A DNA stretch of 64,000 nucleotides from contig JAIPEE010000002.1 in assembly GCA_021737275.1 (NCBI GenBank), forward strand, positions 1 through 64,000, given 5' to 3'. The DNA comes from Desulfobacterales bacterium. Its GTDB lineage: Bacteria > Desulfobacterota > Desulfobacteria > Desulfobacterales > JAIPEE01. Of the stretch, positions 804 to 18,039 are shown piece after piece; within the stretch, counting starts at the first letter, position 1; each line of letters starts with the position of its first letter. A program made the position numbers and the translations under genes. The notes under the pieces are model-generated. The model was given only the letters and a program-made list of their open reading frames with translations. It was not told the DNA's origin and searched no databases.

Positions 804-1465
804 ATATTAATATTGAATACGGTTTCGGATATTTTAAATGCAATAAATATCCGGGGACATCATTACCTATTCATTTTTTCCGTCTTGTATTTGGGAGAAA
901 TGGGGTTATGGAATGACAGGAATGGGATTCAGGAATGGGTGACCCTATATTCTTCTTATTCGGATTAATTGTCGGTCCAATCTTCACATGCCTCAATCAT
1001 GTGTTTAAGTTCTGAAAATCCGGCAAAGGGAACAGATGCTATAAATTGAATCCGGTTATTTGGTTTGTGGTGAACTTATTATAACCTTTATCCATAAGGC
1101 TTCTCAAGTTCTTTTACTACCAAGTCACTTCTTTTTTATGCAACCCTGAGGTGTATACTTTATCAAAATTTTGAATAAATTGCAGCGGAAGTTAACAATA
1201 TGATTGGGCTTGGGAAAAGAATTTTATTTAAACATTTGCTTGGGCTAAGAAAAAGGAGCAAATTACCCGACAATTAAACTTTGCCCCCGGTTTGGTGTGG
1301 TCTCGTACATTTGGGATTTCATACTGGACTTGACAAAGGGCAAGCTCTTATCCTATGACTTCTTGCGGATGCTATGGATAATTGCGCTCAGTGATAATAA
1401 TCGGTTGTGAATCCAATGGCATTCTATGAATTACTCGAGTGTTACAAAATGGGAACAAAGTAAGT
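804..1465. other. Intergenic stretch with probable decayed gene fragments
   Basis: About 660 bases without an intact gene. Two open stretches look protein-like but lack starts: on the minus strand 965-1075 (36 residues, containing RIQFIASVPFAGF and ending MIEACEDWTDN), and on the plus strand 1249-1410 (contains WDFILDLTKGKLLSYDF). I cannot assign either to a family; they look like remnants of lost genes. A TTGACA at 1330-1335 with a weak TATGAC at 1354-1359 (18-base spacing) could be the promoter of the downstream operon. Confidence 0.35.
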
Positions 1466-3082
1466 ATGAACCGACCGTATCGTATTAAAGCAGTGCTGTT
1501 CGATTTTGACGGGACCCTGACTGAACCGGGAGCTATCGATTTTGAACTCATTCGGCACCAAATTGGTTGTCCGCCGAATATGTTGATCCTGGAGTATATC
1601 CAAAGTCTTGCAACGAGCGACAAACGTCGTGAGGCAATTTCTACGGTCGATGGTTATGAAATGAAAGCAGCCGGCAAGACACACCCCAATGCCGGCGCAG
1701 ACGGTATTATCGAAGACCTGAAAATGATGGGTGTCATGGTTGGGGTTATAAGCCGCAATAGCCGATTGGCGATCGATCGAGCGCTGAAAAATTTTGAACT
1801 CACAACGATCGAAACCTTTGATTTAATTATCTCCAGAGATGACCCCGTTGCACCAAAACCAAAACCCGACGGAATACACCATGCCGCTGAATTTTTTGGG
1901 GTGGCTGTGGAAGAAATTCTGGTTGTGGGTGATTTTATTTTAGATATCGAGGCTGCACACAACGCCGGGGCTTTAAGCGCTTTTATTACCAATGGAGAAA
2001 AGGGTGCAGTTCCGGAGCAGCCGGATTTCATTATTCAATCCCTGGCAGAGCTGGCATTGATTGTAAAGATGGGTTTGCCGCTACCAGGCGGCAAGCTTCC
2101 TCAGGATTTGCTGGATAATTTTCTCAACGAGTTTGTGTTTAGTGACCCTTCGGTTCTGAACCGGCCGGGCATAGGAGAGGATACCGCTGCAGTAGACGCC
2201 AGTGAAGAAGAGGTCGTTGTCATTACATCCGATCCGATCACGTTTGCAACGAACGCCATCGGAGAATATTCGGTGTTAGTCAATGCCAACGACATTGTCA
2301 CCTCCGGCGGTACGCCCCGTTGGTTCTTGTCGACACTTTTATTTCCGGTTAACACCACGCCTTCGGAGATACGCTCTGTAATGGCGGCGTTGGCCTCCGT
2401 CTGTAATCGCTGCAATATAACCTTATGCGGCGGCCATACAGAAATTACGGACGGGGTGTCACGCACGATCATAAACGGCATGATGATCGGTAGTGTGCGC
2501 AGGGATCATTTCCTGGATAAAAAGAATATGAGGCCGGGAGATCATATTCTCCTGACCAAAGGTGTTGCAATCGAAGGTACGGCACTTATCGCCCGTGAGT
2601 TTGAACAGCAATTGATGGGCATGGGAATAAACGAAGGGTTAATCGAACGGGCCCAGGCTTTTATTTCCGGAATCAGTGTGCTTGAAGAAGCAAAAATTGC
2701 CGTAGATATCGACGGTGTCAAAGCGCTGCATGATATCACCGAAGGCGGAATAGCGACAGCACTTGAAGAATTCTCGATCGCAGGCGGATTCGGTATGAAA
2801 ATACAGTTGGGACAGATTCCGATTCTGCCGGAAACCAAGGCGGTTTGCGCACCTTTTAATATTGATCCCCTTGGCCTGATCGGTTCCGGAAGCCTTTTGA
2901 TCTGCTGTCGTCCGGAAAGCTCGAAACGATTGCAGGATGAGCTGGCGGCTGCCGACATTGAAGCAGCTGTTATAGGATCGGTGATAGACGCTGAACCGGG
3001 CATTATGGCGATTGATGACCAGGAAAATGTGGACTGGCCTCGCTTTGACGTGGACGAAATTACCCGCCTTTACAGATCATGA
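1466..3082 (+). CDS. HAD phosphatase fused to a PurM/HypE-like (AIR synthase) domain
   Basis: A 538-residue two-domain protein. Residues about 8-205 are a HAD hydrolase: motif I DFDGTLT with both Asp at 13 and 15, motif II ISRNS, motif III around KPKPDG, motif IV VGDFILDIEAA. Residues about 215-530 are an AIR-synthase/HypE-type ATP-binding domain: GEDTAAV, SDPITFATNAIG, NANDIVTSGG, GGHTEIT, GDHILLTKG and DITEGGIATA, in family order. PurM-like enzymes bind ATP and phosphorylate or activate small molecules, whereas HAD domains usually remove phosphate; the substrate is unknown. The first gene of an operon with ECF-transporter-like genes (stop overlaps the next start), so it probably processes an imported compound. 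Start at ATG 1466 precedes MNRPYRIKAVLFDFD; GTG 1439 is possible. Confidence 0.8.
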   Translation: MNRPYRIKAVLFDFDGTLTEPGAIDFELIRHQIGCPPNMLILEYIQSLATSDKRREAISTVDGYEMKAAGKTHPNAGADGIIEDLKMMGVMVGVISRNSRLAIDRALKNFELTTIETFDLIISRDDPVAPKPKPDGIHHAAEFFGVAVEEILVVGDFILDIEAAHNAGALSAFITNGEKGAVPEQPDFIIQSLAELALIVKMGLPLPGGKLPQDLLDNFLNEFVFSDPSVLNRPGIGEDTAAVDASEEEVVVITSDPITFATNAIGEYSVLVNANDIVTSGGTPRWFLSTLLFPVNTTPSEIRSVMAALASVCNRCNITLCGGHTEITDGVSRTIINGMMIGSVRRDHFLDKKNMRPGDHILLTKGVAIEGTALIAREFEQQLMGMGINEGLIERAQAFISGISVLEEAKIAVDIDGVKALHDITEGGIATALEEFSIAGGFGMKIQLGQIPILPETKAVCAPFNIDPLGLIGSGSLLICCRPESSKRLQDELAAADIEAAVIGSVIDAEPGIMAIDDQENVDWPRFDVDEITRLYRS

Positions 3083-4395
3083 GCAATTTGGAAACCTGTA
3101 CTACTTTTTTCAGCAATTATGAAGAACGGGAGGATGCCTTTCGGAAGTCGGTGGAGTTCAAGTTGGCAAGGCGGTATGGAGGCCCGGTTCTGTTCTGGAA
3201 AGATTTCAGGCAGATCTCAGGAATAGTCACGACCCCTCGCAATGGGGATCTTGTTTCATCGATCACAAGCAATCCAAAGGATTGTCTGGCCTTTGCCACA
3301 GCCGGCCAGGTCCTTATGGCGGCCTTGATGTCAGCAGGAAAGTGGGGGAACGAAGATCAGATAGGAGACATCGCTTCTCGTTTCGGTATTGCCGATCAGT
3401 TAACCCAGCCCATCAGAACCCTCTCCGGTGGTGAATCGGTAAAACTGGCTCTGGCAAAAACATATGTGTCCATACCGTCATGCGGTAAGGTTGTAATCTC
3501 AAGCCCGTTTGCCTGGCTTTCTCCGGCAAATCGGTACTTGTTGGAAGACGTGATCGAGCAGTGTCTCCATGGCCGTAAACAGGTGTCGATTCTGGCACTG
3601 GATGGAGAAAATGATTTGTCTCCCGCAACGCCGGATGATCTTGGTTTCAGGTCCGGACAAAACGTCCTGTCTTTCTCGATGCGGATGTCTGATGTCAGGA
3701 TTCCCCTGACGTTGTCCCTTAATCCATTAGCCGACCATGTTCCTTGTGCAGCCATCGATGATACTTCCCTGAAATTGGAATCACCGTGTTTGATAACGGG
3801 AGAAAACGGGCAGGGGAAAAGTCTGCTGGCGCGCGCCCTTGCTGGTTCAATTGCTTTGCAGGGCAGGGCCTTCGTAGGAGAAGTGGATACAGAAGGAAAA
3901 GTAAGTCTTCTTTTTCAGGACGTACAGACCCAGACCCTGATGCGGTCTTTTTCCGTACTTGCCGCAGCCGGAAGGCGCACAAATAAAGTTGTCTTTTCCA
4001 TATACAACGCCATAAGGGAGGTGTATAATCTTTCTTTGGCATACAACGACTCAGGTGCAGGGCCATTTATTAACGCGCCTGGTGAGAAACATCATACCTT
4101 ACTCGATGTGAAAGCCATACTTGTGGCTGTTCGTATTGCCGCTTCCCCGGCAGCCCTTATTCTGGACGAGCCGGATTGGGGATTGAGTCGCCGAAGCAGT
4201 ATCGCGTTTGTGGATGCAGTGGTCACAGTCGCGCATGATCAAAAAATACCCGTGTTGCTGATTTCCCATAAACCCTGGTGGCAGCCCCTGATTCGCGGTT
4301 GTCTGTCGGTTTCACGAACACCTGGCGGGAACGCTGCATCATCCGATGAGCCGGAATTTACAGTATATCTTCATGCCAGTGAGGCTGGACAATGA
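3079..4395 (+). CDS. Double ABC ATPase of an ECF-like transporter, with split active-site motifs
   Basis: A 438-residue tandem ABC ATPase, comparable to fused EcfA/A' subunits. The N-terminal half has a clean signature motif (TLSGGES, about 114-120) but no Walker A and a degenerate Walker B (KVVISSPFAWLS, no Asp-Glu). The C-terminal half has Walker A GENGQGKS (241-248), Q-loop LLFQD (Q280), Walker B ILDEP (361-365) and H-loop LLISHK (H397), but no recognisable LSGGQ. Because ABC sites form between the Walker motifs of one half and the signature of the other, the protein appears to retain exactly one complete ATP site. ATG overlaps the previous stop and its own end overlaps the next gene, so it is tightly coupled. 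Confidence 0.78.
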   Translation: MSNLETCTTFFSNYEEREDAFRKSVEFKLARRYGGPVLFWKDFRQISGIVTTPRNGDLVSSITSNPKDCLAFATAGQVLMAALMSAGKWGNEDQIGDIASRFGIADQLTQPIRTLSGGESVKLALAKTYVSIPSCGKVVISSPFAWLSPANRYLLEDVIEQCLHGRKQVSILALDGENDLSPATPDDLGFRSGQNVLSFSMRMSDVRIPLTLSLNPLADHVPCAAIDDTSLKLESPCLITGENGQGKSLLARALAGSIALQGRAFVGEVDTEGKVSLLFQDVQTQTLMRSFSVLAAAGRRTNKVVFSIYNAIREVYNLSLAYNDSGAGPFINAPGEKHHTLLDVKAILVAVRIAASPAALILDEPDWGLSRRSSIAFVDAVVTVAHDQKIPVLLISHKPWWQPLIRGCLSVSRTPGGNAASSDEPEFTVYLHASEAGQ

Positions 4396-5126
4396 ACTGG
4401 AAACTGAAAGCATTAATCATCTGGGTCCTTGCGGTTCCAGCCTTTACCGGGTTTCCGATCCATTATTTACACGGGCGTCTCCTGGCTGCTGTTGATTATG
4501 GGTGGATCATCTACGGTGCAATCGTCTATGCGGCAATTGTTTTGCTGCTTGGGAAGAAAATATATAAGATTACGATCATAATTGCGTTGGCTATCACCAT
4601 CCCGTTGGTATTGTTGGGTACTTTGATATCAATTATCGGTTTATTAATATCCGGATGGAATGTGGGTGATTTAATGGATATAATCGGCCATTATGCCCAC
4701 TTGATGGCTACGATGATAGTGGTAATTCCTCTGGCTTTGTCGATGATAACGGTGCTTCCTTTCTATCGCTTGGAATCCCACATCCTGCAAAGCAGACATG
4801 GGGTGGGGATGTGGCCGAAAATTGTTTTGATGTTTCTCCGGGTATTCAACCATATCTTTTATTTTGTTATTCCCAACATTATAGAAGTTATCAGAGAAGA
4901 GGGCGTACTGCCGGGGCGAGGTGTTTTGACCTCGGGACAGACCAGTAAGAAACTGCCATTATTAAAACGATTGAGGAAAATTACTCAAGTGCTGGTTAAT
5001 ATCGGGGTTGAATCGATTTGCTCAGCAATTCGATTTATTCCACTCTGGGTAGATGAAATTTCCATGCTGCCTGATAAACATACAGTGAATATAATTACGC
5101 AAAACAAAGAATCTTCTGAAGATTGA
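4392..5126 (+). CDS. Membrane protein, probable ECF transporter T component
   Basis: A 244-residue protein with about five hydrophobic segments in its first two thirds (for example ALIIWVLAVPAF, IIYGAIVYAAIVLLL, ITIIIALAITIPLVLLG, MIVVIPLALSMITVLPF, IFYFVIPNIIEV) and a more polar, positively charged C-terminal part (KKLPLLKRLRKI). That layout and its place between an ABC ATPase and an S component fit the EcfT scaffold subunit, whose C-terminal coupling helices touch the ATPase. I do not see textbook EcfT coupling motifs, so the assignment leans on context. ATGA overlap with the ATPase gene. Confidence 0.6.
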   Translation: MNWKLKALIIWVLAVPAFTGFPIHYLHGRLLAAVDYGWIIYGAIVYAAIVLLLGKKIYKITIIIALAITIPLVLLGTLISIIGLLISGWNVGDLMDIIGHYAHLMATMIVVIPLALSMITVLPFYRLESHILQSRHGVGMWPKIVLMFLRVFNHIFYFVIPNIIEVIREEGVLPGRGVLTSGQTSKKLPLLKRLRKITQVLVNIGVESICSAIRFIPLWVDEISMLPDKHTVNIITQNKESSED

Positions 5127-5144
5127 ATGAGAGGCAATCATAAG

Positions 5145-5682
5145 ATGGATCACAATAAAGAAACCCGAATACTATTTCAGGCCGGCATTATTGCCGCTTT
5201 CAGCACGCTTGCCTTCATCGGTACGATAATGATTCGCATACCGATTCCCGTTACGGGGGGGGTATTTTAACCTTGGAGATACATTTGTCATGGCTGCGGC
5301 CCTTCTTTACGGTCCTCTGGTTGGTCTTTTCGTTGGGACAATCGGACCTGCAGCAGCAGATGCAGTTGGTTTTCCCCAGTTCATTGTAGCTACTGCAGTT
5401 GTCAAAGGTCTGGAAGGGTTAATAGTTGGGTTGATCGGGTGGAAAAGCAAGGACAGCAGATGGCGACGGATTGCAGCCCTTGTTGTCGGTGTCGCCATAC
5501 TTGTGTCAGGTTATTATATTTTCGAAGCGGTTGTCTATCCGTTAATAGCCCAGACAGTCCCGTTCTTTGCCGTCACCGACGCTAAAGCCGCATTGGCGGA
5601 AATCCCTCCAAACCTGCTTCAGGGTATTCTGTCAGCCGTTGTGGCTTACGGCATCTACAAGGTGCTGAACCGAAAAGATTGA
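5145..5682 (+). CDS. ECF transporter S component, reading frame broken at a G8 tract
   Basis: The first 41 codons (ATG 5145, MDHNKETRILFQAG...) read into a stop just after a run of eight Gs at 5255-5262. Removing one G joins them to the second open frame (in-frame codons through ATG 5290) and gives the family hallmark VTGGYFNLGDTFVMAAALLY, followed by further membrane helices to 5682; total about 178 residues, normal for a substrate-binding S subunit of the PF07155 (riboflavin-transporter-like) group. The substrate cannot be read. As written the gene is frameshifted; a sequencing error, phase variation or a real null mutation are all possible. Only the 5290-5682 part is open on its own. Confidence 0.75.
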
Positions 5683-17904: not shown

Positions 17905-17939
17905 ATCAATAAAAATCGAAAATATAAAAAACTGATTTT

Positions 17940-18030
17940 GTTGCCCGCTTCCCTTCGCCGGTATTATCCGGATCAGGTTCCAAGGGTTAGGATCAATTCC
18001 TTCTCAGCGTTAACTGCACCCCCAGCGAAA
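17940..18030 (-). ncRNA. TPP riboswitch (THI element)
   Basis: The minus strand carries the core of the THI box: GGGGGTGC, CTGAGA, the ACCCTTGGAACCTGATCCGG region and AATACCGGCGAAGGGAAGC, in the right order and spacing. It sits 80-170 bases before thiS and controls the whole thiSGHF-thiD2E-thiC operon by sensing thiamine pyrophosphate. Confidence 0.95.
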
Positions 18031-18039
18031 TATAATCAT

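Follow-up and report, generated by a model that had tools for sequence, protein, structure and literature searches.

The window, by which we mean the whole stretch of 64,000 nt from a Desulfobacterales bacterium that was analysed here, carries near its start three consecutive genes, which we refer to as A, T and S for an ABC ATPase, a T-like membrane component and an S component, respectively. The ORF of A is a real gene, and its product is built of two halves that are both related to the NBDs of ABC transporters. The genes and the motifs of the A protein are listed in Table 1. The start of A is overlapped by 4 bases by the stop of an upstream gene (1439-3082) that appears to encode a fusion of a HAD-type phosphatase and an AIR-synthase-like domain (HypE/ThiL/SelD-like, all under curated cut-offs). 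Among the relatives examined, this neighbour was seen as a full gene only in a Desulfofustis relative, where it is 71% identical. Further upstream (178-803) lie two small ORFs that overlap each other and, judged by eye, resemble a toxin-antitoxin pair of the MazE/MazF type. The window also holds a TPP riboswitch on the minus strand (17933-18033, 80.6 bits), which has no link to the A-T-S operon.

Table 1. Genes of the A-T-S operon and motifs of the A protein, with positions in the window and residue numbers of A.
Feature	Position	Strand	Residues of A	Remarks
A component, tandem pseudo-NBD / NBD protein (P0001)	3079..4395	+		438 aa
Candidate N-half P-loop/first-helix vestige	3166..3207	+	30-43	invariant G35 and F39; putative P-loop equivalent
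N-half Q-loop/Q-helix remnant TSNPKDCL	3265..3288	+	63-70	Pro 33/33; Q-loop Gln and Q-helix Gln lost
N-half ABC signature LSGGE	3421..3435	+	115-119	invariant 33/33
Degenerate N-half Walker B VVISSP	3490..3507	+	138-143	Ser-Ser replaces Asp-Glu
C-half Walker A GENGQGKS	3799..3822	+	241-248	motif and alignment
C-half Q-loop Gln and ECF-type Q-helix Gln (QDVQTQ)	3916..3933	+	280-285	Q280 and Q285 both invariant
Erased C-half signature HTLLDVK (LSGGExx position)	4093..4113	+	339-345	profile alignment and member alignment
C-half Walker B and D-loop LILDEPDWGL	4156..4185	+	360-369	motif and alignment
C-half H-loop LISHK	4258..4272	+	394-398	ISHK at 395-398
T-like membrane component (P0002)	4392..5126	+		244 aa; overlaps end of A by 4 bases
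S component gene (PF07155)	5127..5682	+		frameshifted at 8-G run 5255-5262; intact in relatives

The motifs of the two halves were compared over an alignment of 33 family members, whose identity to the window protein ranges from 22 to 58%. The C-half has a Walker A motif, a Q-loop that reads FQD (aa 279-281), a Walker B motif with D-loop and an H-loop, and its entire cassette aligned with canonical NBDs in hhalign (probability 98.9-99.4%). At the position-by-position counterpart of LSGGE it reads HTLLD (aa 339-343). The N-half has kept LSGGE itself. With canonical NBDs it can be aligned only from aa 54-57 onwards, immediately before the Q-loop, to beyond Walker B (hhalign probability 96.5-98.1%). 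The pattern GxxxxGK[ST] was sought in the N-half and no match was found. The H-loop His is absent from this half in all 33 members, where the position is held by Glu, Asp or another residue but never by His. A direct comparison of the N-half and C-half profiles gave no significant alignment, so that the halves must be regarded as strongly diverged. Neither domain thus holds the full cassette of Walker A, Q-loop, signature, Walker B and H-loop; the two halves together make up one set.

The AlphaFold (AF2) model of A as a single chain had a pLDDT of 88.9 and a pTM of 0.90. In the N-half of this model a helix begins at the invariant G35, and the stretch before it contains no more than a single short strand (8-11) and a pair of short helices. 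We searched the model for a strand leading into G35, as expected of a P-loop strand, and found none. The antiparallel beta subdomain of the N-half is also largely gone, being down to one short strand. We rejected a hidden Walker A in the N-half on the basis of the missing pattern match, the lack of any profile alignment upstream of aa 54 and the model without a P-loop strand. At the candidate P-loop vestige (aa 30-43), Gly-Lys is retained in only five distant members of the 33-member alignment, and because these keep it there, the alignment suggests that G35 is a fossil of the N-half P-loop.

The closest PDB folds to A are fused tandem ABC proteins, namely ABCE1, DppD/OppD and the MCR A2 component. 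We regard it as unlikely that the complete site forms between two chains, with the tandems paired head to tail, or that a different ATPase contributes to it. Our view of the assembly is based on the sequence and a monomer model, which leaves room for such a site, but the pTM of the single chain indicates a confident intramolecular arrangement, the best fold matches are themselves intramolecular tandem pairs, and one chain holds exactly the elements of one site. We therefore prefer a composite site within the single A chain.

When 58 genomes from the order were searched at the protein level, seven orthologues with 30-43% identity turned up in other families. A scan of a genome collection added further relatives, nearly all of them from Desulfobacterales, together with one Nitrospirae MAG, one Saprospiraceae MAG and the isolate Mucilaginibacter aquatilis; most of the relatives are MAGs, and the placement of two of them in Saprospiraceae and Nitrospirae depends on MAG binning. 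At a strict cut-off, only the own genome and one partial match passed among 395 genomes of the phylum, and the isolate was the sole match among 296 genomes of its phylum. These samplings indicate that the A family is patchy and rare outside Desulfobacterales. A search for plasmid carriage gave no match.

The motif losses are the same throughout the family. In the N-half, the Asp position of Walker B is Ala, Cys, Ser or Val and never Asp, the Glu position is Ser in 32 members and Thr in one and never Glu, and the Q-loop Gln is absent from the 33-member alignment. In the C-half, both signature-Gly positions are hydrophobic in every member (Leu, Val or Ile at one, Leu, Val, Ile or Phe at the other). 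The catalytic residues of the C-half, in contrast, hardly vary: Gly, Asn, Gly, Gly and Lys of Walker A (GxNGxGK) are each found in 33/33, as are Q280 and the DEP of Walker B, and H397 is found in 32/33. For comparison, the genome encodes 74 further NBDs that could be read, and a simple pattern found an intact Walker A in 72 of them. The presence of the pattern in all 33 members, along with these intact NBDs, rules out chance, sequencing error and simple decay. Judged by the alignment, the complementary motif loss is an old, selected state and not an error.

An earlier note on this sequence had described a first half with LSGGE but neither Walker A nor Walker B, and a second half with Walker A, Q-loop, Walker B and H-loop but no signature. 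Both descriptions were borne out. Its proposal that each chain has one complete composite site and one fully lost site holds at the sequence level for the whole family. No orthologue with intact motifs was found among the 33 members, and the predicted structure shows no hidden P-loop in the N-half; the note had counted such observations among those that would refute it. The comparison with EcfA proteins that it had also suggested points to an ECF ancestry, as follows.

In ECF ATPases the Q-loop is followed by a Q-helix of the form X-P-D/E-X-Q-hydrophobic (PMC6828968). Each half of A has this motif in part: the C-half has the Gln in 33/33 but neither the Pro nor the acid, and the N-half has the Pro in 33/33 but no Gln. 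The Gln five positions after the Q-loop Gln (Q+5) was found in 16 of 16 EcfA proteins encoded beside CbiQ-type T genes, whereas only 4 of 72 NBDs of the own genome have it, among them the EcfA of that genome. Since the Q-helix Gln is invariant in the C-half and the Q-helix Pro is kept in the N-half, the sequences make it most likely that A is descended from a fused pair of ECF-type NBDs.

The S component belongs to a recognised S-component family. As measured on an intact relative, it scored 103.6 bits against PF07155 (cut-off 26.7, E 1.5e-29), and it matched the solved ECF S protein 4hzu_S with an E-value of 7.4e-14. We take 4hzu_S, its nearest solved relative, to be an HmpT-type S component, which is a weak lead only to the substrate. 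Helix 1 of S is rich in Ala (VAAFATLAF), with an exact AXXXA seen by eye in some members only; an AXXXA motif in helix 1 is described for S components (PMC11109136). Within the family S is far more conserved than its partners, with a mean identity of 61% vs 36% for A and 34% for T. The order A-T-S was found in 26 of the 30 loci on genome contigs, and most of the remaining loci are cut by contig ends. The A, T and S distances correlate with r 0.92-0.94, a correlation that common ancestry would also produce. A riboswitch was sought at 14 of the loci and none was found. Across the loci there were no consistent gene neighbours beyond A-T-S. Several relatives (three loci) have, ahead of the operon, a gene for a small membrane protein with multiple spans, which by eye resembles YhhN/lysoplasmalogenase.

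In the window the reading frame of S is broken, and the break coincides with a run of eight G. It reflects an error of the assembly, slippage at a phase-variable site or a transporter that is dead in this strain. As S is the only PF07155 gene found in the own genome, the transporter may be off in this strain, or the base may be erroneous. Together with the truncated N-half, this frameshift is what speaks for A being a decaying or regulatory remnant that does not hydrolyse ATP and acts only as a scaffold or sensor. We hold this improbable, given the near-invariance of the residues of one site described above and the high conservation of S, which is intact in the relatives.

T was less readily placed. 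It had no match in Pfam, CbiQ (PF02361) included, and the profile comparison with CbiQ-type T proteins gave an hhalign probability of 4% and thus no similarity, on which basis we rejected T as a member of CbiQ. The CbiQ family search does pick up true CbiQ proteins, both in the own genome and in 18 out of 20 related ones. A fold search of the PDB with T placed the EcfT chains 4rfs_T at rank 1 and 4hzu_T at rank 4, both as weak matches (E 0.75 and 1.6, probability 0.54 and 0.38). The invariant residues of T include R150, E169 and E170, while R168 is found in 23 of 30 sequences and E222, at the second motif position, in 28 of 30. In the alignment of CbiQ-type T proteins, R163 and R202 are invariant. 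Unlike in these canonical components, the two coupling motifs of the X-R-X (Ala-Arg-Gly) type are not strictly conserved in T, and the acid in the helical subdomain of A that normally binds the Arg of T is not conserved either. The sequences are consistent with a rebuilt coupling interface between T and A. One may speculate that the bridge has undergone a charge swap, with Glu of T facing Arg/Lys of A at aa 67 and 289; the main group agrees with this, but many T proteins retain R168.

The presence of ABCE1 among the best PDB sequence and fold matches could mean that A is soluble and, like the tandem ABC proteins ABCE1 and ABC-F, has a role in translation or DNA repair, so that its gene merely adjoins membrane genes. 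The recurrence of the T-like and S genes downstream of A at most loci makes this very improbable, as do the correlated A, T and S distances (with the reservation on common ancestry given above), the invariant ECF Q-helix Gln and the fact that A was found to have neither an FeS domain nor an ABC-F arm domain. Finally, a gene-call or sequencing artefact that hides the P-loop upstream or in another frame, for which the probable homopolymer error in the adjoining S gene might be cited, can be dismissed, as the same losses occur in 32 other sequences and the orthologues refute it.

Taken together, we consider it likely that A, T and S form a divergent, dedicated ECF-like importer of a micronutrient that runs on one ATP site, with the other interface as a nucleotide-free hinge. 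From the motifs we infer that the complete site is active and the lost one empty. A single ATP would be bound between the Walker A, Q-loop, Walker B and H-loop elements of the C-half and the LSGGE of the N-half. The second interface is not expected to bind ATP, as it is without a P-loop, Walker B acids and the H-loop His and has Leu-Leu-like residues in place of the signature Gly; it may serve as a nucleotide-free hinge or a packing surface. One ATP per cycle would then open and close the NBD pair about the hinge, and this opening and closing would drive the release and reloading of S through the T-like protein.

The gene set is that of the ECF (type III) transporters of groups I and II (EcfAA'T + S; BioMNY, CbiMNQO), as A, T and S occur together, S is a PF07155 relative of 4hzu_S and the C-half of A retains the Q-helix Gln. 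Fused A1-A2 forms also occur among canonical ECF transporters (PMC6828968). The present system differs from these in that one ATP site is erased and T is unrecognisable as CbiQ/EcfT by profile. In the canonical ECF-FolT2, ATP is found at both sites in the trapped closed state (PMC10368641), and in comparison the A-T-S family would be a one-site version of this cycle. We searched the open-access literature and found no paper there that describes an ECF A component in which one site is erased.

The nearest parallels to the motif pattern come from other transporter classes. Among type II importers, RbsA and NupO of B. subtilis have fused NBDs in which one site follows the consensus and the other is degenerate; in NupO, the second half lacks the Lys of Walker A and the Asp/Glu of Walker B (PMC11466899). 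A resembles them, as its single polypeptide combines a consensus composite site with a degenerate one. The own genome encodes an RbsA-like protein with a mirror-image complementary loss, in which the N-half has GENGAGKS, ILILDEP and LNVAE and the C-half has GLVGCGFE, FLFNEP and LSGGN. In this protein the order is reversed relative to A, the degenerate P-loop (GLVGCGFE) is still recognisable and the transporter class is another one. Pdr5 and other exporters with a degenerate site (CFTR, TAP, TM287/288) share with A a site in which all motifs have changed opposite a canonical site, and according to a review the degenerate site of the Pdr5 type is thought to hold ATP as a glue (PMC7756269). These are exporters in which a substituted P-loop persists, whereas the P-loop is gone from the N-half of A, and for this reason we would not expect a nucleotide at the second site as in the Pdr5 type. 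The mycobacterial OppD/DppD, ABCE1 and the A2 component of methanogen MCR likewise have tandem NBDs in one chain in a similar arrangement, but they are not ECF proteins, have longer chains and show no link to an S component.

The pattern in A had been called more extreme than the usual asymmetric ABC pairs. This stands in so far as the P-loop itself has been lost. It does not stand for the complementary loss in a fused NBD pair, which is known in kind from RbsA, NupO and Pdr5. What sets A apart is that the P-loop has been deleted rather than changed, that this has occurred in an ECF-like transporter and that the accompanying T is not recognised by family models.

Why dead ATP sites are retained in many ABC transporters is an open question, and current models place ATP there as a hinge; in the published case of Pdr5, restoring the dead site killed the function. 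The A-T-S family offers a second site that is expected to be ATP-free, in about 30 genomes and in an importer class that normally has both sites intact, and it would therefore allow a clean test of one ATP per cycle. More tentatively, and with some doubt on our part, the family could form a distinct class of ECF-like importers, in which a separate T family has dispensed with the canonical Arg-Asp bridge for coupling and the second site of the ATPase is without any P-loop. If so, it would represent a natural ABC motor that works with a single nucleotide and has, at its degenerate site, a hinge that never holds one, and ATP as a glue in a degenerate site would not be required. Because current family models do not detect its T component, the A-T-S family would widen the definition of an ECF transporter.
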